A stretch of DNA of 64,000 nucleotides from NCBI GenBank assembly GCA_903904835.1, contig CAIVEI010000162.1:62001-126000 (forward strand), given 5' to 3'. The notes below the pieces were generated by a model that was not told where the DNA came from, searched no databases, and saw nothing but the letters and a program-made list of their open reading frames with translations. The position numbers were made by a program, and so were the translations under genes. Below, in pieces: positions 1 to 61,308 of the stretch; position 1 is the stretch's first letter; every line of letters starts with the position of its first letter. Source of the DNA: an uncultured Schlesneria sp. Lineage in GTDB: Bacteria > Planctomycetota > Planctomycetia > Planctomycetales > Planctomycetaceae.

Positions 1-153
1 CCAAATCAAGGGGCAATGATTCTGGCGTATCTTGTCCTTGTGGCGACGTTCATCGTTGGGGGAGCTTTGGCCATAATTGGGTCGATCATGACAATTCTCG
101 TTATTCGAAAGGAGCATCGAGATCACGGACTGACCAATAACAACCCGCAATGA
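1..153 (+). CDS. C-terminal fragment or small membrane protein
   Basis: The frame is open from the window edge to a TGA stop. An internal ATG at position 16 would give a 45-residue protein: a hydrophobic segment of about 25 residues (MILAYLVLVATFIVGG and onward) followed by a short charged, Asn-rich tail. It is either the end of a larger membrane protein cut by the window edge or a one-helix small membrane protein. No family is recognised and no ribosome binding site is visible in the few bases available. Confidence 0.4.
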   Translation, partial: PNQGAMILAYLVLVATFIVGGALAIIGSIMTILVIRKEHRDHGLTNNNPQ

Positions 154-432
154 TCGAACATTTGACGAAGCCCATGCGGAGAAATCCAAAGGATTCAAGG
201 TACGATTATCAGATTCAGTTCAAACTGAATAAACGGTTCCATTCCCCTGTCAACAAGTCGACGACCGTTCAATCAAGATTCCTTGAGGTAAGCGGCGTCA
301 CAGCGCGAACGAGGCTCGCATGATATCCCGCCCACCCTTCAAAGACTTTCGTGAGGAAGCGAGAATCGGAAACTATCATGGACTTCATATTCTTCTTAGA
401 AATCCAAAGGTGGCGGAAACCGGATATCGGAT

Positions 433-655
433 TCAGCCTTTAACTTCTTTTCCAAATGAGTCGATCACCAATTGTGAGGTGGCCCCAAGCAAACGGCAGG
501 CGACTCAGAGATTGAGTGTTTCGACGCCTTAGGTCGCTATGGCGTCGATGCCCCGACACGTGTTTCGTCAATTGCTTTGTAAATTCCTTGTCCATAAACA
601 ACTGCATTTGGTAATGTCATTTCGTCTTGACCGTTCTGGAGTGAACTGATACCAG
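433..655 (-). pseudogene. Decayed paralogue of the small membrane protein at 3763-4056
   Basis: Read on the minus strand, this stretch ends in codons for LLGATSQLVIDSFGKEVKG and a stop. That is almost identical to the last residues of the intact gene at 3763-4056 (LLGGASQLVIDSFGKEVKG). Further upstream another frame gives GIYKAIDE, matching WLYKSIGE of the intact gene. In-frame stops and at least one frameshift separate the two parts, and no start is visible. It is therefore a pseudogene produced by duplication. The two copies flank the genes at 669-3722. The upstream (higher-coordinate) limit is approximate. Confidence 0.75.
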
Positions 656-668
656 AACGCTCGATTTT

Positions 669-1952
669 TTGTTGAACCATGAAGTCACATGGGAAACTCT
701 TTCCTTGCATCGCTGGCTCGCCCTTGCATGGATCTGGGGATTGACCAACGCCGTTGCGTATGCCGGTGAATTGGCCCCGAGTCCACTGATGAATCTTAAA
801 CGGCCTCGAATTTTTGAGGTTCGCGGTTCCCAGTTTCCATTGCTAAACGATTCGCCCAAGCGGCAAGCCCCCACGTTTGACGCACAGATCGGAATGGCTT
901 CTGACGGCAACTTAGTCGAGTTTCATGGTCCGATTCTCGACAACGTTTTCGTTGACGAAGAGGCAGCCGACGACATGTCAGATAGTCAATCTGGCCGAAT
1001 CTTGATGACTCAGTATTCAGAGGAATTTCAAGAGGGGCAACGGGAAAATACTTTCCCACCGCCGCCGCCGGTACCAACACCATTATCTAACGAAGCGGTA
1101 CCACTCGATGGAGCCCCTCGTAACTCCACAACCAAGCCGAAAGTTGACGAATACAAGTTTCAAAACCAATATTCTTCGCTGGCCTGGATCGCAGGGGCGA
1201 ACGACCGACTGGGGATGATTGAACTCCTTTTCAACCCGCCAAGCCGAGTCTGGTATGACCCGACCCGGCCGGTCACCACAACATTCGTCGATATTGAATG
1301 GGGTGCCCGATGGCTTAACGGCCCTGACATCACGGACCTGCCGCCGCAACTTTTTAATATCGGGATTGATGTCGGTGACAGGTTTCAATTCAATGATGCC
1401 ATCTCAGTGGACGTCATGATTTCCCCGAGCTGGTACACCGACTTTTCCAATAAAGGGGTCCAGTCGTTCCGAATGCCGTGGCATCTGGTGACGTACTATA
1501 CAATTGAAGAAGACTGGTACTGGGTGGCGGGTGTCACTGACCTGGCGCGTGATGACATCAAATATCTTCCCGTCCTGGGGACAGTCTATGCACCGAAGGA
1601 GGTGGATGTCCGATTGGATCTTGTCTTCCCAAGACCCAAGATTTCCCGGAAATTGGCTCAGATTTCGAGCGTTGAAAACGGCCAGACATTCAAAGGGAAC
1701 TCGTACTGGCTGACACTGAGTGGGGAACTGGGGGGCGGTTCATGGGCGATCAGCCGAGAAAACCGGGCCTATGATGTTGTGACCTATCGTGACTACCGTC
1801 TCGTTGCGGGTCTTGAACAGCATCGTATCAACGGCCAAATTACACGACTCGAAGGGGGTTGGATTCTTGGCCGGTCCGTGGATTACCGCTCCAACATCGG
1901 GAACTACAATCCTTCCGATACGTTCATGATCCGAATTTCCAGTGAGTATTGA
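669..1952 (+). CDS. Secreted beta-barrel-like protein, unknown function
   Basis: The 427-residue product begins with a hydrophobic stretch (HRWLALAWIWGLTNAVAYA) that looks like a signal peptide. A Pro-rich linker (FPPPPPVPTP) follows, then a C-terminal region of about 270 residues rich in alternating hydrophobic and aromatic strands that ends in Tyr. This pattern suggests an outer-membrane beta-barrel such as the planctomycetal DUF6268-like proteins, but the family assignment is uncertain. The start is uncertain too: TTG codons at 669 and 708 are both possible and no in-frame ATG precedes the signal peptide. The gene is monocistronic, with the DUF4236 gene following about 200 bases downstream. 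Confidence 0.7.
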   Translation: MLNHEVTWETLSLHRWLALAWIWGLTNAVAYAGELAPSPLMNLKRPRIFEVRGSQFPLLNDSPKRQAPTFDAQIGMASDGNLVEFHGPILDNVFVDEEAADDMSDSQSGRILMTQYSEEFQEGQRENTFPPPPPVPTPLSNEAVPLDGAPRNSTTKPKVDEYKFQNQYSSLAWIAGANDRLGMIELLFNPPSRVWYDPTRPVTTTFVDIEWGARWLNGPDITDLPPQLFNIGIDVGDRFQFNDAISVDVMISPSWYTDFSNKGVQSFRMPWHLVTYYTIEEDWYWVAGVTDLARDDIKYLPVLGTVYAPKEVDVRLDLVFPRPKISRKLAQISSVENGQTFKGNSYWLTLSGELGGGSWAISRENRAYDVVTYRDYRLVAGLEQHRINGQITRLEGGWILGRSVDYRSNIGNYNPSDTFMIRISSEY

Positions 1953-2150
1953 TTTTCTTCGAAAAATAAAATGGTGTCAGGGACGGAATATTTGATTCAG
2001 TTCCTGCCACGTTTAGTTTTTGTGCGGCCGGAGAAATTCGCCATGATTGTTGACACTGACTTGTGTCGCGTCGCAAAAATCTAACAATTTCGGAAACCTC
2101 CCGGCTCAAACTGCAAGGGGGGGATCTACTGGAATACTGCGAGCAAACCG

Positions 2151-3722
2151 ATGGGCTTGTACATTAGAAAGAGCGTGCGCGTTGGGCCACTTCGGTTTAA
2201 TCTTTCGACGTCCGGTATCGGCGTGTCAACTGGCTTACCCGGATTTCGTGTAGGAATTGGTCCGCGCGGAACGCAAATTCACTTGGGTCGTGGCGGTTTC
2301 TATTACCGTCAAACCATTTCGCCCCGCGCTCCGCAATACAGGGAGGGTGACAACAGACCTCAGGCCACTCACCAGGATCGATCCTGGACACACGGTCCGA
2401 TGACTCCCATCGAATTCGGTAGTGTTACAGATATGGTCGATTCGAATTCATCTGACCTTCTGAATGAGATAAAGCAAAAACGTGCAAGATTTACTTGGTG
2501 GCCCATCTGCTTGACGGCCACCCTAGTTCTCGTCGCGCTCTATCTCACTGAAAATTACACGCATTCATTCGCATTGCCTTCCATCATCCTGTTGATCATC
2601 GCAACTTTCGTCATTCATCAATGGGACCAATTGAGGAAGTCCGTAGTATTGATGTACGATCTGGACGAGAACTCGATTTCGGCCTACGAACACCTTTGTG
2701 CTGCAGTCAACGAATTGAAGAGTTGCTCAGCCGTATGGCAAATCACATCCCATGGTCAGGTTTACGACCCGAAATACCATGCCGGCGCAAACAAAATCAT
2801 TGATCGCAAACCCATTTCGTTCGCCTATTGTGATCCGCCGTTCGTCAAGACAAATCTGATGATTCCATGCGTCAAAATCGGTGATCGATCATGGTATTTG
2901 CTTCCAGATCGCGCTCTGGTCTACGCATCGAATGGAATCGGAGCCGTAGAATATGAGGCCCTTGTCTTCGCCACGGCATATACCGAAGTCATTGAGGATG
3001 GCGAGTTGCCGGCCGACTCAATGATCGTGAGATACACCTGGCGATTCGTAAACAAAGACGGTGGTCGTGATCAACGATTTAATAACAACAAGGAATTGCC
3101 CGTTTGTCGTTACGAATTGCTGCATTTATCTGTGCCTGCGGTCCTCGACGAGTTGCTTCAGATTTCTCAATTAGGTGTCGCCGGTCGATTGCAATTGGCG
3201 GTCATGCAAGTTGTTCAGGAGATATTTACGGCCAAGGTGGCGGAACAAGTACGCTTGATCGAGGAAGAACGTCGTCGAAATCAAGAGTTGGCACAAAGAT
3301 CTCTCAATTCCTCTAGGCACATTACGGATGAGGCTGTTGAAGATTCGTCAAGTCCCGTCGAAAGCGACGATATTTATACAGCGTTGTTTGAACTCTGCTG
3401 CACAATCATGATTGCAGATGGCCGAGCCTCAACAAGTGAAAAAGAAACGATTCGTGAGGTCATGCGAAGAGTGAATTCCAAGTGGCCGGACGATGAGCTT
3501 GATAATCGAATTGCCCTTTTCATCAACGATGTTCGCAGCCTTGGTTATTCGACAGTTCTGTCCCGGTCAATGTCGCGTTTGCCATTGTTCAAACGAAAGG
3601 GGCGAGACAAAGTCTTGCTTAAGAGCATTGATTTAGTCGCGAACGCGGATGGCGCGATTGCAAAGCGTGAAATCGAATTGTGTGATCGAGTACGGAAGTT
3701 TATGGACGACGGGGGTTCTTAA
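2151..3722 (+). CDS. DUF4236 - transmembrane - TerB-like protein
   Basis: The 523-residue product has three parts. Residues 1-50 (GLYIRKSVRVGPLRFNLS and a Gly-rich continuation) match the DUF4236 signature. Residues 115-132 and 140-157 form two transmembrane helices. Residues about 405-523 form a helical domain with acidic patches (IMIADGRASTSEKE and DLVANADGAIAKREIELC), the pattern of TerB/tellurite-resistance-like domains. The middle region is unassigned. TerB-type domains are associated with metal binding and membrane stress. The combination suggests a membrane-anchored stress sensor or scaffold, which is inference. ATG is the start. Confidence 0.8.
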   Translation: MGLYIRKSVRVGPLRFNLSTSGIGVSTGLPGFRVGIGPRGTQIHLGRGGFYYRQTISPRAPQYREGDNRPQATHQDRSWTHGPMTPIEFGSVTDMVDSNSSDLLNEIKQKRARFTWWPICLTATLVLVALYLTENYTHSFALPSIILLIIATFVIHQWDQLRKSVVLMYDLDENSISAYEHLCAAVNELKSCSAVWQITSHGQVYDPKYHAGANKIIDRKPISFAYCDPPFVKTNLMIPCVKIGDRSWYLLPDRALVYASNGIGAVEYEALVFATAYTEVIEDGELPADSMIVRYTWRFVNKDGGRDQRFNNNKELPVCRYELLHLSVPAVLDELLQISQLGVAGRLQLAVMQVVQEIFTAKVAEQVRLIEEERRRNQELAQRSLNSSRHITDEAVEDSSSPVESDDIYTALFELCCTIMIADGRASTSEKETIREVMRRVNSKWPDDELDNRIALFINDVRSLGYSTVLSRSMSRLPLFKRKGRDKVLLKSIDLVANADGAIAKREIELCDRVRKFMDDGGS

Positions 3723-3762
3723 ACCCAGTAAATTCAACAACGAAAGGAACCGAAGTTCGGTT

Positions 3763-4056
3763 TCAACCTTTAACTTCCTTCCCGAAGGAATCGATCACCA
3801 GTTGCGAGGCGCCTCCAAGCAAACCACCAACTACAGTTACGACGAGCGTTCCGGCGACGAAGGTCGCTATTGCATCGGTGCGCCAGCCTGTGGCTTCGCC
3901 AATTGACTTGTAAAGCCACGGACCAAATCCGATTGCAACGGTCCAACCAATACTGATCGGCAATGCCTTCTCAAAAAACGTTGCCTTGTAGTTCGTATTT
4001 GGTTGCGACGGTTGTTCGCCTGACAATTTTTCTTGAGGTTCGATCATTTCAGGCAT
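3763..4056 (-). CDS. Small two-helix membrane protein
   Basis: The 97-residue product has a polar N-terminus, a helix around ISIGWTVAIGFGPWLY, and a second Gly/Val-rich helix (TFVAGTLVVTVVGGLLGG) before a short charged tail. It starts 20 bases after the stop of the large ThuA/dehydrogenase gene on the same strand, so it may be cotranscribed. A broken copy lies at 433-655. No function is recognised. Real coding is supported because the decayed copy preserves the same C-terminal residues. Confidence 0.7.
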   Translation of the reverse strand: MPEMIEPQEKLSGEQPSQPNTNYKATFFEKALPISIGWTVAIGFGPWLYKSIGEATGWRTDAIATFVAGTLVVTVVGGLLGGASQLVIDSFGKEVKG

Positions 4057-4076
4057 TCTTCGATCGCTTACAGGGC

Positions 4077-7000
4077 CTACTTCCCTTCGGCTTTCGTTGG
4101 CGTTTCCACCGTGATCGCCATCACGATGGGGGATGACTCGGTGTCGTTGCCCTTCACCAGTTCGATCGTGTCGATCTTTTCTGTTCGTTTGGGGATGATC
4201 GAGAAATACCGGATCTGCTGGCCTCGAAGTCGATAAGCGAACTTGCTCTGGGGGACGTCGACGCGACTGATGTAATCGGCGAAATGCTCGCCGTTGATCA
4301 GTTCATGCACCTCGGTCTTGCCGTCGGCATATTTCAGTTGAACATTGATGGCAACCGTTCCCTTCTTGCTCGCTGGCCAGCCCCAGCCGCTGATCCCGCC
4401 AAGCATGTGAATCGCCGTGGCGGGTGAATTGCAGGTGAGTGAAACACTCTTCGGCATGCGAGGTGGTTTGTCACCGTTGCTTCCGTTCAACATGATCGCG
4501 TTGGCGATCCGGTCGCCGGATGGGTCAACCAGTACGAAGGGGATGCCTTCGAAGATCTTTGGTGACCAGTCAGGGAAAATCAGTTTCTGTTCGTCGTGCT
4601 GTCCGTCATGGAACATTTCCTTGGTACTGACAACTGTGGCAACCTTATTGATCGGGATCGGCAGGTATTTGCCTCGCTGCGTCAGGAATTCCAGCAGATT
4701 GGCGATCTCTTCCGGTTTGACCTGTTTTTCAAAACCTTCAGGCATCAGCGACTTGGTTGAGGCGACCAGTTCATCGATGTCGTCTCGCTGGATGGCATGC
4801 TTTTTCCCTTCGGCGTCGAAAATCTCGACGGCCGTTTTTGATTCGGAGGCGAGCAGACCATTCATGACGCGGCCATCGGTGAGTACGACCGAGTAGACTC
4901 GGAAATTTCCTTCGACACTGCGGCTGGGATCGATGATGTGAGTCAGCAATTCCTTTTTGGGATGAACGGCCATCCCTGTCAGGTCAGGTCCAATTTTTGT
5001 CCCTTCACCGCTGTGCGTATGGCATTTCGTGCATTGTTTCTTAAACACTTCTTTGCCTGCGACGGCATCGGCTGTCAGTTCGGTGAGCGGCATCAGTTCG
5101 TCGATCACTTTCTGACGATCAGGATTGGGGAGACCACCACCTCGCGAAAGAATCTTTTTCGCGCGATCGGCCAGCCTCTTCGTAGGATGTGCCGTCAGAC
5201 CTTGCTTCTGATCGAGCGACAATTCGCCAGCTTGAATCGCTCCTTGATCGATTCCGTCGAGTAGGGCCTCGCTCCAGTCCGCTCGGCTGAGTAACGCTCG
5301 CAAAGCGGAAGGCCGGACGGATGGTGTCAGTGTTCCCAGTGACGCAACCAGAGTCGAACCGACTTCCGGTGCTTCGCTGGTTCCGAGCGCTTCGATCAGA
5401 CCCTTACTGAGTTCTGGTGACGTCCGTGGCGTGATGATCGACAGAATATCCTTGGCGACCGCTGGGTCGAGTCGTCGGAAGTTAACCAACTGAAGGGCAG
5501 CCTCACGTCGTGCTGCTTCGGTTTCTTTGTCGTTCCTGGCGATCGTCAGGAATGATCCCGCGATCTCGGTCCCGTATTGTTCCATCTTCTTGCTGCCAGC
5601 ACGTGTGGCAAAGGTCGCCATCGGACCTCGAGTGGCTGGTGGCAGCTTCTTCAGCAGGTCAACCAGAGCGTTTTCCGTGGCATCGTCAAACGTCGTGGCT
5701 TTGCCCTTCGGCCAGCCCTTCGCCAATCCCGTGATGATGGCCGAGTTCACTCGACCGATCGTTTCGGTCACTGCGGCATTGTCGCTTGTTTTGCCGAGCA
5801 GCGGCAGCAGCGAGCCAATCGAATCGACCGGCGCCCCACGCCCGTAATGCTCGGCCACAATGGCAATCAGTTCCGTCGGTGGACTTGCCTGTTTTCCACC
5901 GATATTTTGAACGACCGATTTCAAAAAGTGCGAGTCGTGTCGTGCGGCGGCGGCGACCATCGCGTCGCGTATCCAGCGATCTTCCAAGTTTCCAGGTGAT
6001 GCCATCGCCAAGCGAACCTCTTCACCCGCTTCGGCTGAAGCAGGTAATTCCGCCAACGTCAGTAGTGCTGCAAGTCGGACCTGTGGATTCTTGTCGCGTA
6101 AGACACCGCTCTGCTGAATCGCTGCGATGATCTCATCGTTGCGAGGAAGAACCATCAAGGCATTCCGGCGAACTCCGGCTGACGGATGATTCAACGCCCG
6201 AATAACGACTTTCAGAGCATCGCGGTTTTTGCCGTCGAGTGCCCCTCGACCATGCAATGTCCACAATGCATGATTGATATCCGTTGCGAGTCCGATCTCG
6301 TCGATCGACTGTTCTTTGACCATGTCGATCAGTGGCTGAACAACATCATTATCGCGATTTTCAAGCATCAGCCGCTGAGCATGTCGGCGCCAGAAGAAAT
6401 TGGGCGAGTGCAGGGCAGCCAGCAACTGTTCGGCATTGGCTCTGGACAGATCCAGAGATTTGCCCGCCATCATTGCGCCATCGTCGGACGACTTCGAGGC
6501 GAGCTCGTTTTTGGATGCGGCTGGATCACCCACACCGGTATAGACAATCCGATAGATTCGACCGTGCTTCTTATCGCGTAGATTCGATTCGTAGGCCATC
6601 CCTTTGCCTGTCTTGAAACCTGCCGGAGTCGGATTGTGTTGAATGATGAAGTTGTACCAGTCAATCACCCACATATTTCCGTCGGGGCCAACCTCAGCCA
6701 TGATCGGGCCTGACCATTCGTCATTGCTGGCCAGCAGGTTCCACGAATTCTTCGATCGGAAGCCGGCTCCGTCTTCTCGGATGACAAACGTCGCCACGAG
6801 ATGGCCGGTCGCTTCCGTCACGAAGGCGGTTCGGTTCCAGTATTCCTTCGGATAGTTACGAGCTGTGTAGAGAGCATGGCCTGCAGCGGCAGTGAATCCA
6901 CCGTGATGGTCAACCTGCCGGACTTTGCCTTCATCGAGTGGTTCGAATTTATTGCTGTCCGCGATTCCGCCTAAAACAGACGATGACCAACCCCGTACCG

Positions 7001-8597: not shown

Positions 8598-9007
8598 TCC
8601 GAAACTTTCTGCAAGAAAATCGAGGACTTTGAGTTTGAACGAATCAATCGAAATGAGGGAGTAACCCAGATTCAACCAAAAAACGAATGTGAAACACAAC
8701 CGAACCAACGATTAATCGAAGGATACGGTGACAAAACGATCTCCCCTGGAACAGGTTCAAACGTGTGAAAAGTGAATAACGGGAAATCATGGTCGTGCGA
8801 AGAATTATATCTTTTTGATCGCGTTTCGGCGACCGTCAGACGACATGCGCCGTTCAAGTCCCGATTCACGCAGGGTGAGGTCGAGCCTTCGGGGCCTACC
8901 AATTCGGCGCCATGCACTACAACACAGCCAATCAACCAGCTAATCTCACCACCCCAAACGGCGAAACCGCCGATCAGAAAAATTATCACCGCCTGAAAGG
9001 ATACGCG
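8598..9007. other. Divergent intergenic region
   Basis: This 410-base gap separates the divergent ThuA/dehydrogenase and YhcH-type genes and must hold both promoters. I see no confident -35/-10 pair, no strong hairpin and no convincing small gene. The open frames in it have no homology I recognise. Confidence 0.4.
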
Positions 9008-9478
9008 ATGATTGTTGACAACATTAAAAACCATGCCAAGTACATGCATCTTCCCCCTCGAATCGTGCATGCGATCCAGTACATTGGCAGCACGGACTTT
9101 ACGTTCGTTGAAAGTGGCCAGTACGAACTGGATGGCAAAAAGCTGGTCAGCATGGTCCAGCGTTACAAAACAAAGCTCCCCGAACAGGCAATCTGGGAAT
9201 CGCATCGCAAATACATCGACGTCCAGTTCGTCGCCGGAGGCTACGAACAATTCGGCCATGCGCCGCTGGCCAACGCTCCCAAAGTCAAAACGCCGTATAA
9301 TGAAGAGCGGGATGTGATCTTCTACGAACCGGGCACCGAAATCATCGATGCCCCGATGGGAACGTTTATGATTTTCTACCCCGACGATATTCACGCCCCT
9401 GCGCTGGCGATCGGAAATCCCCCGACCGCCAGTGAAGTGGTGAAGGTTGTCGTCAAAGTGGCGGTTGAAGGTCTTTAG
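9008..9478 (+). CDS. YhcH/YjgK/YiaL family protein
   Basis: The 156-residue product matches the DUF386/YhcH family of small beta-barrel (cupin-like) proteins. Visible family features are the N-terminal MIVDNIKNHAKY, the central WESHRKYIDVQFVAGG and the C-terminal FMIFYPDDIHAPALA, whose His and acidic residues form the metal site. Family members are linked to sialic acid or other sugar acid catabolism, with anomerase-like activity proposed. The start at 9008 is supported by AAAGGA six bases upstream. No sugar-acid operon surrounds it here. Confidence 0.88.
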   Translation: MIVDNIKNHAKYMHLPPRIVHAIQYIGSTDFTFVESGQYELDGKKLVSMVQRYKTKLPEQAIWESHRKYIDVQFVAGGYEQFGHAPLANAPKVKTPYNEERDVIFYEPGTEIIDAPMGTFMIFYPDDIHAPALAIGNPPTASEVVKVVVKVAVEGL

Positions 9479-9547: not shown

Positions 9548-9643
9548 GTGCCACTGCTTGACTGTACTCTGTCAAGCAGTGCTCTTCGACAACGTTTTTT
9601 TAGCGAAGACACTGCGTCGAAGAAGACTCCAATGCAGTGGCAC
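9548..9643. repeat. GTGCCA four-arm palindromic element, copy A1
   Basis: The element runs from GTGCCACTGCTTGAC to GCAGTGGCAC. The first arm pairs perfectly with a nearby second arm (ACTGCTTGAC with GTCAAGCAGT, 10 bp, 8-base loop). A CTCTTCG box follows. The third arm (CACTGC) pairs with the fourth (GCAGTG) around a loop holding GAAGAC. The outer GTGCCA and TGGCAC also complement each other. Related copies are at 35814-35911, 61035-61131 and 63771-63872, with a half copy at 57513-57570. This copy lies between convergent genes. Confidence 0.8.
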
Positions 9644-9734: not shown

Positions 9735-10061
9735 TTATGTGTTTCCGTAATGGACTGCCAGCCAGATCGTCGGCTCGTCAGGAGTAGTCCATTCGACTCG
9801 ATGCTTCGTATGGGCGGGAATGTTAATGAAATCGCCAGGCTTCATTTCAATCGATTGATCGTCCATCTCGAACCGCAACCGAGCCAATCCCTTTAAAAGA
9901 ACGACCCATTCGTGCTGGTCCTGGTCGTACCAGAACCCTTCGGGCGAGGTATGGCCGTGTGAGACGATCCGTTCAATCCGAAAGGTGCCCGCTTCAAGAA
10001 TCGTCGTGAAGAGTTCTTCTGGAAGATCCGCCGGGAGGTATGTGAACAAATTATGATTCAT
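9735..10061 (-). CDS. Small cupin-domain protein
   Basis: The 108-residue product is a single cupin barrel. Typical features are HEWVVLLKGLARLRFE, EMKPGDFINIPAHTKHRV and a final WLAVHYG strand. The histidine in DQHEW and the HTKHRV histidines could form a metal site. Its ATG overlaps the stop of the upstream PH-like gene by 4 bases (ATGA), so the two are probably translationally coupled. The substrate is unknown. Confidence 0.85.
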   Translation of the reverse strand: MNHNLFTYLPADLPEELFTTILEAGTFRIERIVSHGHTSPEGFWYDQDQHEWVVLLKGLARLRFEMDDQSIEMKPGDFINIPAHTKHRVEWTTPDEPTIWLAVHYGNT

Positions 10062-11624: not shown

Positions 11625-12998
11625 TACATCCGCAAAAAAATTGCACATTTTGGCACCAGGCGTCCACAAAAAACTTTTCATGAGCACCTTCCAAACGTTG
11701 AGAAAGTATTTCTCCCCCCCATTGACAGACGATAAATTTTTTTATATTTTCATGTCGCAGCTTGTTTGATGGAGAGGTAGATATCCGCGAGAATTCATGT
11801 GAAGCCGAATTTGCCAGCATCTTTTTGATGTTGTTGATCTTATTCAGTTGGACATTTTGACCGTGCCAGACGTTGTTTGGAACGAGCTAAAGCCCATTCT
11901 ACGGCTTTTGGCTCGCCTGGATTTTCAAACACACAAACGGGACGACGACAATTGATCTTTGACGTCTTGGAATCAATTGAAAACCAATCGCCAGCGCGGC
12001 CATCAAACGGTGCGTGGGTGGGGAGACCGTTGAAATGGAGAAATTCAGACTTCGTCGAAGTCTGGTGAACTCAGGTGAAGTCGCGCGAACTTTATTTCGA
12101 GGAAAAAATCGAATGTGGTACCGCAAACCCTATGAAACACGAGGAATGGTCGAAGTCGCTCGAACTCGCGCGAACTTTTCGATCAAATCGTGTAGGGTGC
12201 GGGCCGAAACGGTAGAAAGTAGTGATGAGACAGTAGTTTTTAGAAAAGACACGAAAAATCTGGGGGGATATCCCGCTCGGCTCAACTGGCGGGAATGATG
12301 GGATTCGAACTCGATCGAACTGTGTCGAACTCGATCGAACTCAGGCGCCATGAAAAAAGCGACGAAAACACTATGAATTACGACGGATGGTCGAAGTTGA
12401 TCGAACTCGATCGAACTTTGACACCAAATTTCTCGGAACCACGGGAATTCGACGAGGCGCTACAGTTGCGCGAGGATTCCCATAGTTGCCCAAGGCGTTT
12501 CATCGTTGCCCAACCAGAGTTGCCTGAGCTCCGCCATTGTTGCCCATCCAGAGTTGCCCAAACGTTGTGAGACTCGAAGTTTGAAAAAGCCTTGGAAATC
12601 CCCAATGTTGCCTAAGAGCTTCCATAGTTGCCCAAGCTGTTTCATCGTTGCCTAACCAGAGTTGCCTGAGCTACGCGATTGTTGCCCATCCAGAGTTGCC
12701 CAAACGTTGTAAGACTCGAAGTTTGAAAAAGCCTTGGAAATCCCCAATGTTGCCTAAGAACTTCCATAGTTGCCCAAGCTGTTTCATCGTTGCCCAACTA
12801 GAGTTGCCTGAGCTACGCCATTGTTGCCCATCTAGAGTTGACCAAACACTGTGAGACTCGAAGTTTGAAAAAGCCTTGGAAATCCCCAATGTTGCCTAAG
12901 AGCTTCCATAGTTGCCCAAGCCATTTTATCGTTGCCCAGCCATAGCTGCTTCTGCTCCGCTAGAGTTGCCCAAACATATTGAGTGTCGAATTTCGAGC
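11625..12998 (+). repeat. Complex modular repeat block L (inverted partner at 38.5-39.9 kb)
   Basis: Four modules occur in order. 11625-11760 is AT-rich and, read on the minus strand, contains TTTGGAAGGTGCTCATGAAAA. 11879-11976 holds GGAACGAGCTAAAGCCCATT and related sequence. 12010-12440 is rich in TCGAAC and TCGATCGAA words, with the phrase around GGATGGTCGAAGT present twice. 12460-12998 is a tandem array. The block at 38475-39895 shows the same modules in the same order on the opposite strand with similar spacing, at an identity I judge to be roughly two thirds. No gene is credible inside. Confidence 0.8.
12553..12978 (+). repeat. 142-bp tandem repeat array within block L
   Basis: Units begin GTTGCCCAAACG at 12553, 12695 and 12837 (the last as GTTGACC), so the period is exactly 142 bp. 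A partial unit precedes them and a diverged one starts at 12965. In one unit the word GTTGCC recurs at 12553, 12607, 12627, 12647, 12661, 12681 and 12695. The steps are 54, 20, 20, 14, 20 and 14 bp. 142 is not a multiple of three, so the repeated open frames are not a repeat protein. Confidence 0.85.
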
Positions 12999-34429: not shown

Positions 34430-35770
34430 ATGAGCCGAGATCCCATTTCCCGACGGTTGGTCTTGAAAGGCCTCAGCACCGCGATCGCTTTGCCATGGCT
34501 CGAAGCGATGGGTCCAATGGCCTCTTGGGCAGAAGAGGCCTCGCCAACGAAAACCGCTCCTAACCGGATGGCATTCCTTTACGTTCCGAACGGCAAAAAT
34601 ATGGCCGATTGGACTCCCGCGACGGAAGGGAGTGCGTTCGAGCTCACGCCAATTCTCGAACCGCTGGCTCCAGTACGAGACGACATTACGATTCTGACGG
34701 GACTGACTGCCGATGGTGCCCGCGCTCATGGTGACGGTGGTGGGGATCACGCGCGTGCTTTGGCGTCGTTTTTGACTGGTGCTCATCCTGTTAAGACCGA
34801 TGGAACCGATATTCGTAACGGAGTGTCTGTCGATCAGGTTGCCGCGTCACGGATTGGCGATCAGACTCGGCTGGCTTCCCTGGAGATCGGCTGCGAATCA
34901 GGTGCGATGGCTGGCAATTGCGACTCGGGTTATAGCTGCGTCTATTCCTCGACGATGGCCTGGCGATCAGCGACTCAGCCGCTTCCCAAGGAAGTTAATC
35001 CAAAGCTGGTCTTCGAACGATTGTTCGGAGTTGGAGCGGGTGCGGATCGAGTCAAACGGGACAAGCTTCGCCAAAGCGTGCTCGATTTCGTTCGTCAGGA
35101 CGCCAGCGATTTGACCGGCAAGCTTGGAAAAAACGATCAGCGGAAGCTCGACGAATACTTCAGTTCCATCCGAGATATCGAACAGCGAATTGCGCGAGCG
35201 GCCACACTACCGGAAGTGAAAGCCCCTGATTATCCGGTTCCTGCAGGAGTCCCCGGTGACTTCCAGGAGCATATTCGACTCATGTGCGACTTGATGGTGC
35301 TCGCCTTTCAGACCGATTCAACCCGAGTCTGTTCGTTCGTTCTGACGAACGAAGGAAGCAATAAAGCCTACCCGTTCATTGGAGTCTCCGAAGGGCATCA
35401 CGAACTGTCGCATCATGGCAATGACCCGAAGAAGAAAGAAAAGATTCGCGACATCAATAAGTTCCATGTCACTCAACTGTCGTACCTCTTGCAGAAGCTG
35501 AAGGCCATTCCTGAAGGTGAAGGAACTCTGCTCGACAATTGCCTGATCGCTTACGGCAGTGCGAATTCAGACGGCAACGCACATAACCATGATGATCTTC
35601 CCGTTCTGCTCGCAGGCAAAGGTGGTGGTACGATTCGGTCGGGACGACACATCCGTTACCCCAAGGAAACTCCGATCAGTAACCTTTGGTTGTCGATGCT
35701 CGAACGAATGGACGTCAAAATTCCATTCCTCGGAGACAGCACGGGTGCATTGACCGGCCTGATGGGCTGA
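34430..35770 (+). CDS. DUF1552 protein, Tat-type signal
   Basis: The 446-residue product has an N-terminal twin-arginine-like export signal (SRRLVLKGLSTAIALPWLEA). The DUF1552 body follows (NRMAFLYVPNGKNMADWTPA, ILTGLTADGARAHGDGGGDH, GVSEGHHELSHHGNDPKKKE, LIAYGSANSDGNAHNHDDLP). The many His and Asp residues are reminiscent of the alkaline-phosphatase-like DUF1501 superfamily. It lies 110 bases after the DUF1592 gene and is presumably its partner. Confidence 0.92.
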   Translation: MSRDPISRRLVLKGLSTAIALPWLEAMGPMASWAEEASPTKTAPNRMAFLYVPNGKNMADWTPATEGSAFELTPILEPLAPVRDDITILTGLTADGARAHGDGGGDHARALASFLTGAHPVKTDGTDIRNGVSVDQVAASRIGDQTRLASLEIGCESGAMAGNCDSGYSCVYSSTMAWRSATQPLPKEVNPKLVFERLFGVGAGADRVKRDKLRQSVLDFVRQDASDLTGKLGKNDQRKLDEYFSSIRDIEQRIARAATLPEVKAPDYPVPAGVPGDFQEHIRLMCDLMVLAFQTDSTRVCSFVLTNEGSNKAYPFIGVSEGHHELSHHGNDPKKKEKIRDINKFHVTQLSYLLQKLKAIPEGEGTLLDNCLIAYGSANSDGNAHNHDDLPVLLAGKGGGTIRSGRHIRYPKETPISNLWLSMLERMDVKIPFLGDSTGALTGLMG

Positions 35771-35813: not shown

Positions 35814-35911
35814 GTGCCACTGCTTGAGAGTCCTCGCTCAAGCAGTGCTCTTCGAGTTTCTTCTCGAAACTAGAAGACACTGCTTAACCGAAGACGGTAA
35901 AGCAATGGCAC
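35814..35911. repeat. GTGCCA four-arm palindromic element, copy A2
   Basis: ACTGCTTGAG pairs with CTCAAGCAGT (10 bp). GCTCTTCG follows. The second hairpin pairs TGCTTAACCG with CGGTAAAGCA (9 of 10 pairs) around AAGA. The outer GTGCCA pairs with TGGCAC. It lies between the convergent DUF1552 and exchanger genes. Confidence 0.8.
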
Positions 35912-35958: not shown

Positions 35959-36891
35959 TCAGGGTTCTGTCCCAAACCACCAGGCAGCGATAATCGAACC
36001 GGCATATAAAGCCAGTAACAGCAGTCCGCGGTTTCGCCCCAGGACTGCACCCTTGATTGGCACCAGCGCCAAAACTGTCAGAATACCGAAAATCACGCTC
36101 GGCAGAACCGCAACGACTGACTGTGGGAACGGGTGAATTGCTCCTGCCAGTCCAATGATGAAAAGGCAATTGAAGACGTTGCTACCGAGCACCGTGCCGA
36201 TTCCGACTTCGTCGTGTCCTCGCAGCTTCGAAACAACTGCCGTGGCCAATTCCGGAGATGATGTCCCGAACGCAACGATTGTCACTCCGATCAGGAACGG
36301 GCTGACACCCAGCATTTCACCCAAAGCCGTTCCCCCTGCCACAATCAACTTGCCAGACAGAACAAGCGTGAACAACCCGATGACCCCAAACACGACGGCG
36401 ATCAACGCCTGCCGCCCCGTTGAGGTCGCCTCAATTCCATCGCGAGCCTGAAGTGCGTCTCGCAAAACCCAGAAAAACCAACCACAAAAAACAGCAAGAC
36501 AGATGATCGCATCCGTCCGCGAAAAATCTCCGTCGGCCAGCAGCAGACACAGAATCACTGGAGCGGACAGAGCCGTCACAAACTCCCGTCTGTATAAGGC
36601 CCAGATAAACGAGATCGGTCCCATGACGATCAGCACACCCAGGACCAGGCCGATATTTACAACGTTGCTGCCTAACGCGTCTCCAAGAGCGATCTGAGGT
36701 TCACCCGCAATGGCGGAGTTGATCGCTACCGAGATTTCCGGGCTGGATGTCGCGAATGCCGCTAACGTCGCGGCCGTGACCGCCTTGGGAATTCGCAACC
36801 ACCCGGACACGCCAAGTACACCACGCAGAAACAATTCACCACCCACGACAGCGCAAATCACACCACCGAGAAATTCGAGCACCGGATACAT
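35959..36891 (-). CDS. Sodium/calcium exchanger family (CaCA) protein
   Basis: The 310-residue integral membrane protein has the two inverted alpha-repeats of the CaCA superfamily: AAFATSSPEISVAINSAIAG with GDALGSNVVNIGLVLG, and AFGTSSPELATAVVSKLRG with GTVLGSNVFNCLFIIG. About ten transmembrane helices are expected, as in YrbG-type exchangers. It probably exchanges Ca2+ or another cation for Na+ or H+. ATG is the start. It is monocistronic and divergent from the DUF1501 gene. Confidence 0.92.
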   Translation of the reverse strand: MYPVLEFLGGVICAVVGGELFLRGVLGVSGWLRIPKAVTAATLAAFATSSPEISVAINSAIAGEPQIALGDALGSNVVNIGLVLGVLIVMGPISFIWALYRREFVTALSAPVILCLLLADGDFSRTDAIICLAVFCGWFFWVLRDALQARDGIEATSTGRQALIAVVFGVIGLFTLVLSGKLIVAGGTALGEMLGVSPFLIGVTIVAFGTSSPELATAVVSKLRGHDEVGIGTVLGSNVFNCLFIIGLAGAIHPFPQSVVAVLPSVIFGILTVLALVPIKGAVLGRNRGLLLLALYAGSIIAAWWFGTEP

Positions 36892-59008: not shown

Positions 59009-61018
59009 TTATATCCGATCCAGGGAGTCGACCCAACGTCCAATTTCGTCGATCACGATTTCTTCGGGATATTTTGCTCCGAATCCCTTGATTGTCGTGA
59101 ATGAAACGGGAAATTTGAGTTTACGCAAGGCGTCGACGGCGGCATTTACTTTTGACAGACTTTTGTCACCGTCGCCGCAGACGAAAAAGAACTGCTGACG
59201 AAATTCCGGGTCGTTATCCGTTGGTCTGGCCAGGAACGGAGCACCCGCAATCACGATACCTCGGACAAGGTCTCGGTGTTTTGTACCGACCATGCACGCA
59301 ATTCCAGCCCCGGTCCCAAACGAATGCAGCACAATACGGTTGGCGTCGATCGTATATTTCCCTCGGATATGGACAATCAATTGCTTGATAAACTCTGCTT
59401 CGCCCGGCTGCCAACCACTCGGTTTATCAGCCTTGGGTGCGACAAGAATCAGGCCGCGTCGATCACATACCGATTTCCACTGCTTAAGCACCGCAGCTTC
59501 CATCGGGTCTCCGTTGGGATGAATCCAGACAACCAGGCCGTACGTGTGCGTTTCGCTATACGTATCGGGAACATAGGCCCAATAGTCATGGTCGCTTCCC
59601 TCAAGCGTGGCGGTGAAACGTCCCGTTTTGATTTTGTCGTCCGATTTCTTTTCCCCTTTTTCCTCGACCTGTTCGTTCCCTGCAGCGACTTCTGGAACGA
59701 TCGGTTCGATCAAATCGGCCGACAGTTCCTCGATGATCTGTTCCGGCAGCGAACCGAGCGTGGCTTCAACAGTCGTTTCTTGCCCCTCGCGAGTGTATGT
59801 GACTTTCACTCGATCACCAGGTCGGCTGCGCCCGACCAGATCACTCAGTACTCGGGCATCTTTCAATTCGACATCATTGAATTTGACGATTCGATCGCCT
59901 CGTACCAATCCAGCCTGTTCGGCTGGACTTTTTGGGAAGACGAGACGTGCTGACGTGCCGATTTCGGTTGAATCTGGCGAAACCACTTTTCGCTGCGGCA
60001 AAATTCCGAGAAAAGGAATTTCGTAGGGAATGAGTTCACCTACCAATGTGACCTCGGCCGGCACGGACGTGTCAGCTCTCGAGACAACGAGCTTTACCGA
60101 ATCGCCTGCATATTTTCGGCCAATGATGTGTTTCAACTGCGCGACTCGAACAATCTTTTCACCATCGGCTTCAATCACGCGATCATTCGTTTTTAACCCT
60201 GCTTGCTGAGCTGGCGAATTGTACCGAACTCGATCAATGATTGCGGGGACGTTTAACTGCTGGCCACCCACAAAAGTGATTCCCATCAGGCCCGGCAGCA
60301 AATCGGTTCCTTGTTTCAACCGATCCAGTGAAGAATAGATATCCTCCATGGGTATGGCGAAACCAATCCCGCCGTCGTACCACTCGACGCCTGCCATGTC
60401 ACCGCTTCCCATCGGAGAGAGCGGTGCGATAACACCCAGCACTCGACCTTCGATGTCGATCAGAGCACCGCCGTAGTTCACTGGCGAGGTTTTGGCATCC
60501 GTTTGGATTGCCTTTCCCCAAACGCGATTCACGGCACTGACGATTCCGACGCTCAGGCTGGGGGTGGAGTTATCGAGGGTTCTTCCAAGCGCCAGTGCCC
60601 ACTGACCAACTTTGGTCTCGTTCTTTGGAGCGGGCTTTGCTGGAATCAAACCATCGACATCGACATGCAAAAGTGTGAGTAACCTCAGTCGATCATTGGC
60701 GACCTGTTTGGCTGCCAACCGGCGGCCATCGGGTAAGGTGACCAGAATCGATGCAGGTTTCCCGACAAAATTGAATGAACTCGAAATGATGTAACCGTCT
60801 GCGGAGACGACGACGCCCGATGTCGGCCCCGCTCCCAGCAGGACCTCATCGACCTGTTCGAGCCCTCCGACCGTTTCAATACGGACGACACTTGGGTCCG
60901 CAAGTGCGGCAGCCTGCTTGAACGCGGTTTCTTCGAGGGCTTCAATGACTCCGTCAGCCCCCATCGCTTTCGAGGCGAGGGACAGGCTGATGACGAACAA
61001 AAAACTTATTAATCGCAC
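59009..61018 (-). CDS. HtrA-like pseudoprotease - double PDZ - esterase fusion
   Basis: The product has about 669 residues. The GTG start at 61018 opens a signal peptide (RLISFLFVISLSLASKAMGA); longer frames would run through repeat element A3. The trypsin-like domain keeps the HtrA framework but lacks the triad. His is Phe82 (GYIISSSFNFVG), Asp is Leu113 (NDRLRLLTLLHVD) and Ser is Tyr182 (TDAKTSPVNYGGALI). Two PDZ domains follow (SPAQQAGLKTNDRVIEADGE, SPAEQAGLVRGDRIVKFNDV). An acidic linker leads to an alpha/beta hydrolase domain with nucleophile Ser in VLHSFGTGAG. The hydrolase may be active; the protease should not be. Confidence 0.88.
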   Translation of the reverse strand: MRLISFLFVISLSLASKAMGADGVIEALEETAFKQAAALADPSVVRIETVGGLEQVDEVLLGAGPTSGVVVSADGYIISSSFNFVGKPASILVTLPDGRRLAAKQVANDRLRLLTLLHVDVDGLIPAKPAPKNETKVGQWALALGRTLDNSTPSLSVGIVSAVNRVWGKAIQTDAKTSPVNYGGALIDIEGRVLGVIAPLSPMGSGDMAGVEWYDGGIGFAIPMEDIYSSLDRLKQGTDLLPGLMGITFVGGQQLNVPAIIDRVRYNSPAQQAGLKTNDRVIEADGEKIVRVAQLKHIIGRKYAGDSVKLVVSRADTSVPAEVTLVGELIPYEIPFLGILPQRKVVSPDSTEIGTSARLVFPKSPAEQAGLVRGDRIVKFNDVELKDARVLSDLVGRSRPGDRVKVTYTREGQETTVEATLGSLPEQIIEELSADLIEPIVPEVAAGNEQVEEKGEKKSDDKIKTGRFTATLEGSDHDYWAYVPDTYSETHTYGLVVWIHPNGDPMEAAVLKQWKSVCDRRGLILVAPKADKPSGWQPGEAEFIKQLIVHIRGKYTIDANRIVLHSFGTGAGIACMVGTKHRDLVRGIVIAGAPFLARPTDNDPEFRQQFFFVCGDGDKSLSKVNAAVDALRKLKFPVSFTTIKGFGAKYPEEIVIDEIGRWVDSLDRI

Positions 61019-61034
61019 GAGTGCAAAAAGTCTG

Positions 61035-61131
61035 GTGCCACTGTTTGGCCGGCTTCGGTCAAACAGTCCTCTTCGATTGGGACCAAAACCATTGAGACAC
61101 TGCTTCTCTGAAGACTGCAAAGCAGTGGCAC
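61035..61131. repeat. GTGCCA four-arm palindromic element, copy A3
   Basis: ACTGTTTGGCC pairs with GGTCAAACAGT (11 bp with one G-T pair). CCTCTTCG follows. CACTGCTT pairs with AAGCAGTG around a loop holding GAAGAC. The GTGCCA and TGGCAC ends match. It lies 17 bases upstream of the pseudoprotease-esterase start and downstream of the homoserine dehydrogenase gene. Confidence 0.8.
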
Positions 61132-61308
61132 GAAGTCCGAAAACCGATCGTTGGCAAAGTGCGACGAAGTTGTTCAGCTCGGGGAAATTGCTGCACATTT
61201 TGGCTTAAGTACTCCAAAAACTTTGTTCGTCACGACCACCGATGTCGGCCAATGTTGAGTCGATGAATTGTATCACCGAATGATGATCCGGTGGGAATCT
61301 CGCAAAAA

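Follow-up and report, generated by a model that had tools for sequence, protein, structure and literature searches.

The closest described counterparts of the repeats considered here are the REPtrons of Pseudomonas and E. coli, in which REPINs (or BIMEs) are paired with a TnpA-REP gene, or RAYT. As in those systems, the present repeats are inverted doublets that occur in high copy, lie mostly outside genes and form tandem clusters, and a RAYT gene is flanked on both sides by the same REPs, here with the same neighboring gene in two genomes (G001 and G005). Unlike the Pseudomonas and E. coli repeats, with their GT[AG]G foot, those described here have the foot GTGC, and so lack the GTAG/GTGG found at the hairpin foot of a canonical REP. 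They differ also in that the left and right hairpins are consistently unlike one another, that at least one subfamily carries outer inverted arms, and that in several carriers, the genome of origin included, a RAYT was not found.

Planctomycete RAYT systems as such are already known, since R. baltica is reported, in the accessible portion of PMC3733652, to hold several families of REPs and numerous genes for tyrosine transposases flanked by repeats. The class 3 TnpA-Y1 REPtrons of Planctomycetes and Acidobacteria, as far as the available text of PMC6006769 describes them, resemble the present system in their planctomycete host and in the atypical REP-like structures near the gene, but they have the foot CnGA and the Y motif YV[VI][AENY]EQ, whereas we find GTGC and YIHQNP. 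Two further comparisons come from the same accessible portion of PMC3733652. TIRtrons (TIRYT) pair a gene resembling a RAYT with inverted repeats, which in certain species also make up a dispersed family, in dimers or clusters; their likeness to the present repeats is one of description. The CGTC-tagged REP superfamily likewise consists of tagged palindromic repeats in several phyla, but its tag is CGTC and it is reported without association to a transposase gene, as opposed to GTGC and a RAYT here. The REPIN/RAYT kind is known, while GTGC is a foot other than GTAG, CGTC or CnGA, the feet described in the available parts of these sources. The literature searched, which was mostly non-subscription and taken without figures or supplements, describes neither a GTGC foot nor a planctomycete GTGCCAC repeat.

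The window copies, their family and their anatomy

Three copies lie on the plus strand of the window, by which we mean the whole 64-kb stretch of Schlesneria DNA that was analyzed. A1 (9548..9643, 96 bp), A2 (35814..35911, 98 bp) and A3 (61035..61131, 97 bp) are each recognized by sequence and by a covariance-model match, A2 and A3 by folding as well. We consider it very likely that these elements are REPINs/BIMEs, that is, pairs of inverted REP hairpins with the 5' foot GTGC, non-autonomous and copied in trans by a RAYT. Accordingly labeled, A1 is an inverted REP doublet, or REPIN core, that opens with a left foot GTGC (9548..9551, plus strand), the same foot as in the RAYT-flanking REPs discussed below, followed by a left REP hairpin (9552..9581, plus strand) that is supported by folding and by covariation over 120 copies. 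A central linker, with TCTTC and GAAGA boxes at its two ends (9582..9609, plus strand), is read from the sequence; beyond it come the inverted right REP hairpin with GAAGAC in its loop (9610..9639, minus strand), again supported by folding and covariation, and the right foot GTGC, read on the minus strand (9640-9643). The hairpins are at 35818-35847 (left) and 35878-35907 (right) in A2, and at 61039-61068 and 61098-61127 in A3.

A first-pass annotation, made before this analysis, had drawn the three copies as four-arm palindromes. It placed them correctly, and the outer GTGCCA/TGGCAC clamp, the CTCTTCG box, the GACACTGC arm and the GAAGAC loop that it listed are all found in the copies; the arms, too, are as drawn, except that the last arm of A2 is GCAATGGCAC, one base off. 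All six strands (A1-A3, both strands) outfold nearly all dinucleotide shuffles, with z values of -2.4 to -8.5 as DNA and -3.0 to -10.3 as RNA; for the weakest of the six, 4 of 200 shuffles fold at least as well. A1 and A2 are each flanked by convergent ORFs (8912-9478, plus, and 9735-10061, minus, for A1; 34430-35770, plus, and 35959-36891, minus, for A2). A3 is overlapped by a long ORF on the minus strand (59009-61198), through its 5' part, and the true start of this ORF may lie downstream of A3. The window copies look old, since their nearest neighbors on other contigs are 81-84% identical.

That A1-A3 belong to a real repeat family is confirmed by searches of their own genome (G000), an 8.18-Mb draft in 211 contigs. 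There are 31 hits there to a strict pattern for the left half, compared with 0 for the reversed-pattern control, and a covariance model built from 18 copies gives at least 150 matches, of which the 150 scored are all at E <= 1.4e-7. Two places match on both strands, leaving at least 148 distinct ones, where the first-pass annotation had named a lack of further copies as the result that would count against it. At E <= 0.01 the model matches in 19 of 59 genomes, the own genome included; these comprise 14 of the 15 Schlesneria genomes (G009 has none, and G007 one weak match only, E 0.003) and five outside the genus. The own-genome copy analyses below cover 120 of the at least 148 places, the 28 left out being mostly low-scoring.

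The consensus reads GTGC-CACTGCTTGACC-GTCTTC-GGTCAAGCAGTG-CTCTTCGA, linker, (G)GAAGA-CACTGCTTCTCC-GAAGAC-TCC.AAGCAGTG-GCAC, and consists of two inverted hairpin units with GTGC feet on opposite strands. The four-arm description thus holds in form, its arms being those of two inverted REP hairpins. The earlier proposal of two alternative folds also holds insofar as both can be drawn, but covariation prefers the two local hairpins. Over the 120 own-genome places these have 90.8% of cells paired, 150 double-changed cells compared with 43.5 in shuffles (counts of sequences, not of independent events) and a covariation score of 0.231, compared with 0.097 for shuffles and 0.052 for the best slid version; none of 500 shuffles reaches their pairing, their double-changed cells or their score. 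Twelve pairs show a double change, compared with 8.6 in shuffles, and 6 of 500 shuffles reach 12, but this measure alone does not discriminate, since slid versions also reach 10 to 13. The long-range fold proved the weaker: it is 87.3% paired, with a score of 0.162 (0.099 in shuffles), and shares conserved columns with the local hairpins. Its pairs with a double change are at shuffle level (9 as opposed to 9.9), so the arms covary mainly inside each hairpin. The covariation that the first-pass annotation had put forward as its own check is therefore present, though mainly within the hairpins.

Almost all doublets (329 of 340) join one left-type and one right-type half, and 95 halves stand singly, in a count that covers the loci fetched to that stage and takes overlapping loci more than once. 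Members of a subfamily have linker and flanks in common, which makes the doublet the unit copied. In subfamily S1 (20 copies) the outer inverted arms CTaGTGCGTTGTC / GACAACGCACTAG are kept about 28-33 nt outside the clamp, giving a unit of about 160 bp, and the S1 consensus folds as one long nested hairpin. The clamped stretch of about 97 bp that was originally delimited is therefore the conserved core but not always the full unit. Complementarity between the outer 50-nt flanks, taken over the 120 copies, is slightly higher for a copy's own pair of flanks (6.49) than for swapped partners (5.95 +- 0.15). In the single-contig genome G003 the copies are arrayed at regular spacings of about 154 and about 190 bp.

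RAYT genes flanked by the repeat hairpins

At three loci the same hairpins stand on both sides of a Y1/HuH gene: L089, in another genus of the same family (G015), and the Schlesneria loci L299 (G001) and L371 (G005). The two proteins tested score 85.9 and 91.1 bits with the NCBIfam model NF047646 (REP_Tyr_transpos), for which the cutoff is 80. With PF01797 (Y1_Tnp; gathering cutoff 23), L089 lies above the cutoff at 30.1 bits and L299 below it at 18.8 bits. The RAYT translation contains the motifs EHVH and YIHQNP. A homolog at E <= 0.001, at any closeness and with other Y1 genes included, is present in 47 of the 59 genomes.

The linkage extends beyond these three loci. Fifty RAYT loci were tested, 30 of them selected by the search and 20 picked by hand from the better scores; the main count is of the 47 with at least 38% identity, which come from several families. 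Of these 47, 29 have the word GTGCCAC/GTGGCAC no more than 300 bp away on one side or both, 22 of them on both, as opposed to 4 and 1, respectively, at a control distance of 700-1000 bp from the same genes. The three loci below 38% identity have it on either side in two cases and on both sides in one. Other Y1 genes, for which 28 loci in five Schlesneria genomes were usable (17 of 45 were dropped for a contig end near the gene, and gene ends are approximate, set by rule from the domain match), have it on either side in 6 cases and on both in 0, the same counts as at their own control distance. GTGCCAC/GTGGCAC is shared by more of the RAYT genes than any other of 7,044 distinct 7-mers. Eighteen of the 47 lack the word nearby. 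Within Schlesneria, the word brackets all five RAYTs that are 63-100% identical to the G001 protein (which is one of the five), at no more than 300 bp on either side; six clade members of the genus are more distant, and among these the word is present at L408 (both sides) and L413 (one side) only. Of 78 distinct GTGCCAC words near RAYTs, a hairpin finder has 42 starting a hairpin, 26 of them exactly after GTGC; the 36 that it rejects include imperfect stems and words that read outward from the end of an element.

The RAYTs of L299 (region 34-5889) and L371 adjoin the same helicase-like gene, and on its other side the G001 RAYT is next to a DNA methyltransferase-like gene, both names coming from reading of the translations and not from a family search. 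Six other Schlesneria genomes were searched for the helicase-like neighbor: G000, G002, G003, G006 and G012 have no full-length homolog, and G013 has one at 33% identity. As five of the six, including the RAYT carriers G006 and G012, are without a full-length one, a fixed RAYT site is seen in two species only. Beside the RAYT gene of L089, positions 1028-1570 hold a fragment resembling a RAYT start (80% over 35 aa) with an adjoining REP, which suggests a local duplication of the REPtron. L089, outside Schlesneria, is itself one of four left-right pairs wider than a doublet, and contains the RAYT. The other three gave no autonomous composite of left half, gene and right half within Schlesneria: the spacing of 120 bp in L329 and of 350 bp in L273 leaves no room for the RAYT gene, and the ORFs of L282 are ordinary genes.

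The first-pass annotation had left three options for the repeat, namely a structured RNA, a bidirectional 3'-end element and a small non-autonomous mobile element. It is the last that these results support, in the more specific form of a REPIN that a RAYT probably mobilizes, and the repeat has probably spread by jumping. Reasoning from known RAYT systems, we infer cleavage, strand transfer and mobilization of the window's own copies along the following lines. A RAYT is a single-strand HuH/Y1 enzyme related to the IS200/IS605 transposases. Once a strand becomes single-stranded, for example during replication, each REP could fold; the enzyme would recognize foot and hairpin, nick beside the doublet and rejoin the doublet elsewhere, mostly between genes. 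A RAYT gene that is itself flanked by REPs, as in the relatives described above, constitutes a REPtron.

A broader proposal, to which we give roughly even credence, is that GTGC defines one more REP superfamily besides GTAG, CGTC and CnGA, linked to a clade of RAYTs that is widespread in the window's planctomycete class, with the foot as a different guide and the left/right heterodimer with its outer arms as the transposing unit, which would have outlived its enzyme in several species. Guide-dependent cleavage rules have been described for a Marinomonas REPtron, in the accessible part of PMC8266576; by extrapolation from these, a GTGC foot should, if the proposal is true, direct cleavage to GC or GA and not to CT. 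A natural variant of the foot would offer a test of the model in which a guide sequence sets the target choice of a RAYT, in a well-defined planctomycete REPIN/RAYT system with a foot unlike those studied so far. A conspicuous repeat that annotation would pass over also receives an explanation.

Gene context and competing explanations

The 120 own copies, placed relative to ORFs of at least 80 aa from a crude ORF caller, comprise 53 in tandem gaps, 28 in convergent gaps, 10 in divergent gaps, 21 inside ORFs and 8 that are unclassifiable, so that 91 of the 112 classified copies lie outside ORFs of this size. Where copies fall inside ORFs, 16 of the 20 listed ORFs are no longer than 450 nt. Convergent gaps exceed divergent ones (28 vs 10; p 0.005 against an even split), although the window's own baseline of 4 convergent and 3 divergent gaps is too small for judging this excess.

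Such an excess is what one would expect of a bidirectional 3'-end element, a terminator or mRNA stabilizer used by the host and kept under selection. The fate of A1 speaks partly for this reading, in that four species retain the element behind one and the same upstream gene (its orthologs are in G001, G002 and G005) and that in the left stem of the G002 ortholog a T-A pair has become A-T, both partners having changed. The orthologous copies, however, are partly decayed in the right half, and a preference for convergent gaps is usual for REPs. As an account of the origin of the repeat this reading is unlikely, and what the first-pass annotation took for a possible 3'-end function may instead be a side effect, or a secondary role, of a REPIN.

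Inverted ends, dispersed copies and, in S1, the outer arms CTaGTGCGTTGTC / GACAACGCACTAG would also suit a MITE of a DDE-type insertion sequence, with terminal inverted repeats, a double-strand transposase and a target-site duplication. There is no direct repeat at the core boundary, however, the mean longest common string over 120 copies being 3.25 as opposed to 3.23 +- 0.08 after shuffling (the outer boundary provided a single usable case); the internal hairpins, moreover, are structured and covary, and the same hairpins flank RAYT genes, all of which makes a DDE element very improbable. The strong folding and the covariation would equally befit a structured or regulatory RNA acting in transcripts, but both strands can fold (the minus strand of A3 weakly), orientation in tandem gaps shows no significant preference (32 vs 21, p 0.17), the 64-kb window has 0 Rfam matches at gathering thresholds, and the linkage to RAYT genes would go unexplained, so that we set this option of the first-pass annotation aside as the least probable.

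Copies without a close RAYT, and other repeats

A homology search of the own genome, G000, finds no cognate RAYT, the best match (28% identity, E 2.3e-11) being another Y1 gene, although in a draft of 211 contigs a RAYT may lie in an assembly gap. The genome has 15 PF01797 genes, and GTGCCAC/GTGGCAC flanks none of them on both sides at 300 bp or less; at one, L036, the word lies at about 480 and 390 bp. L036, L037 and L042 each have one REP half within about 1 kb, that of L037 degenerate. More generally, G000, G002 and the single-contig G003 all carry the repeats, and among the matches listed they have no RAYT above about 34% identity, save short fragments (one of 43% over 62 residues in G002, and short ones of up to 40% in G003).

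Copy number in Schlesneria does not follow RAYT presence. The carriers of a RAYT of at least 63% identity (G001, G005, G006, G012 and G013) have at least 70, at least 70, 52, 55 and 35 copies, respectively, and the Schlesneria genomes without one have at least 70, at least 70, 51, 13, 1, 30, 0, 31, 50 and 45. In G005, 17 of 52 sampled copies have a neighbor at least 95% identical, compared with 0 of 21 in G001, 0 of 4 in G002 and, with the same filter, 0 of 9 in the own genome; as these samples differ in size and were not subsampled, they give no more than a hint that G005 has been active recently. When all 120 own copies are taken, the closest neighbor reaches 96.9% identity. As no cognate RAYT was found in their genome, A1-A3 are most likely inherited and now immobile copies. 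A comparison with empty sites was made for the A1 site alone and then dropped, because congeners are too diverged between genes. Having both RAYT-bearing and apparently RAYT-less carriers, Schlesneria lends itself to the study of REPIN persistence without the enzyme.

Further repeats came to light alongside these. The window contains a tandem array at 12480-12949 (142-bp unit, 3.3 copies, 92% match) whose six frames are mostly broken by stops. Both this array and a stretch at about 12054-12436 have matches at numerous sites in G001, G002 and G005, and hence represent further dispersed repeat families. At L004, L009, L013, L024 and L273, left element halves precede another repeat, GTAGCCATCATCGCTCCGCGTGATG (some bases differ in L024), whose sequence resembles that of a GTAG REP in which the stem is bulged; the combination of left half and GTAGCCATCATCGCTCCGCGTGATG is possibly a chimera of two REP families. 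Hairpins inside an ORF are reported for subclass 2.4 genes in the available text of PMC6006769, and a GTAG-footed hairpin lies inside a Y1 transposase ORF at L042 (1514-1563; G000:C162), about 20 kb to the right of the window.
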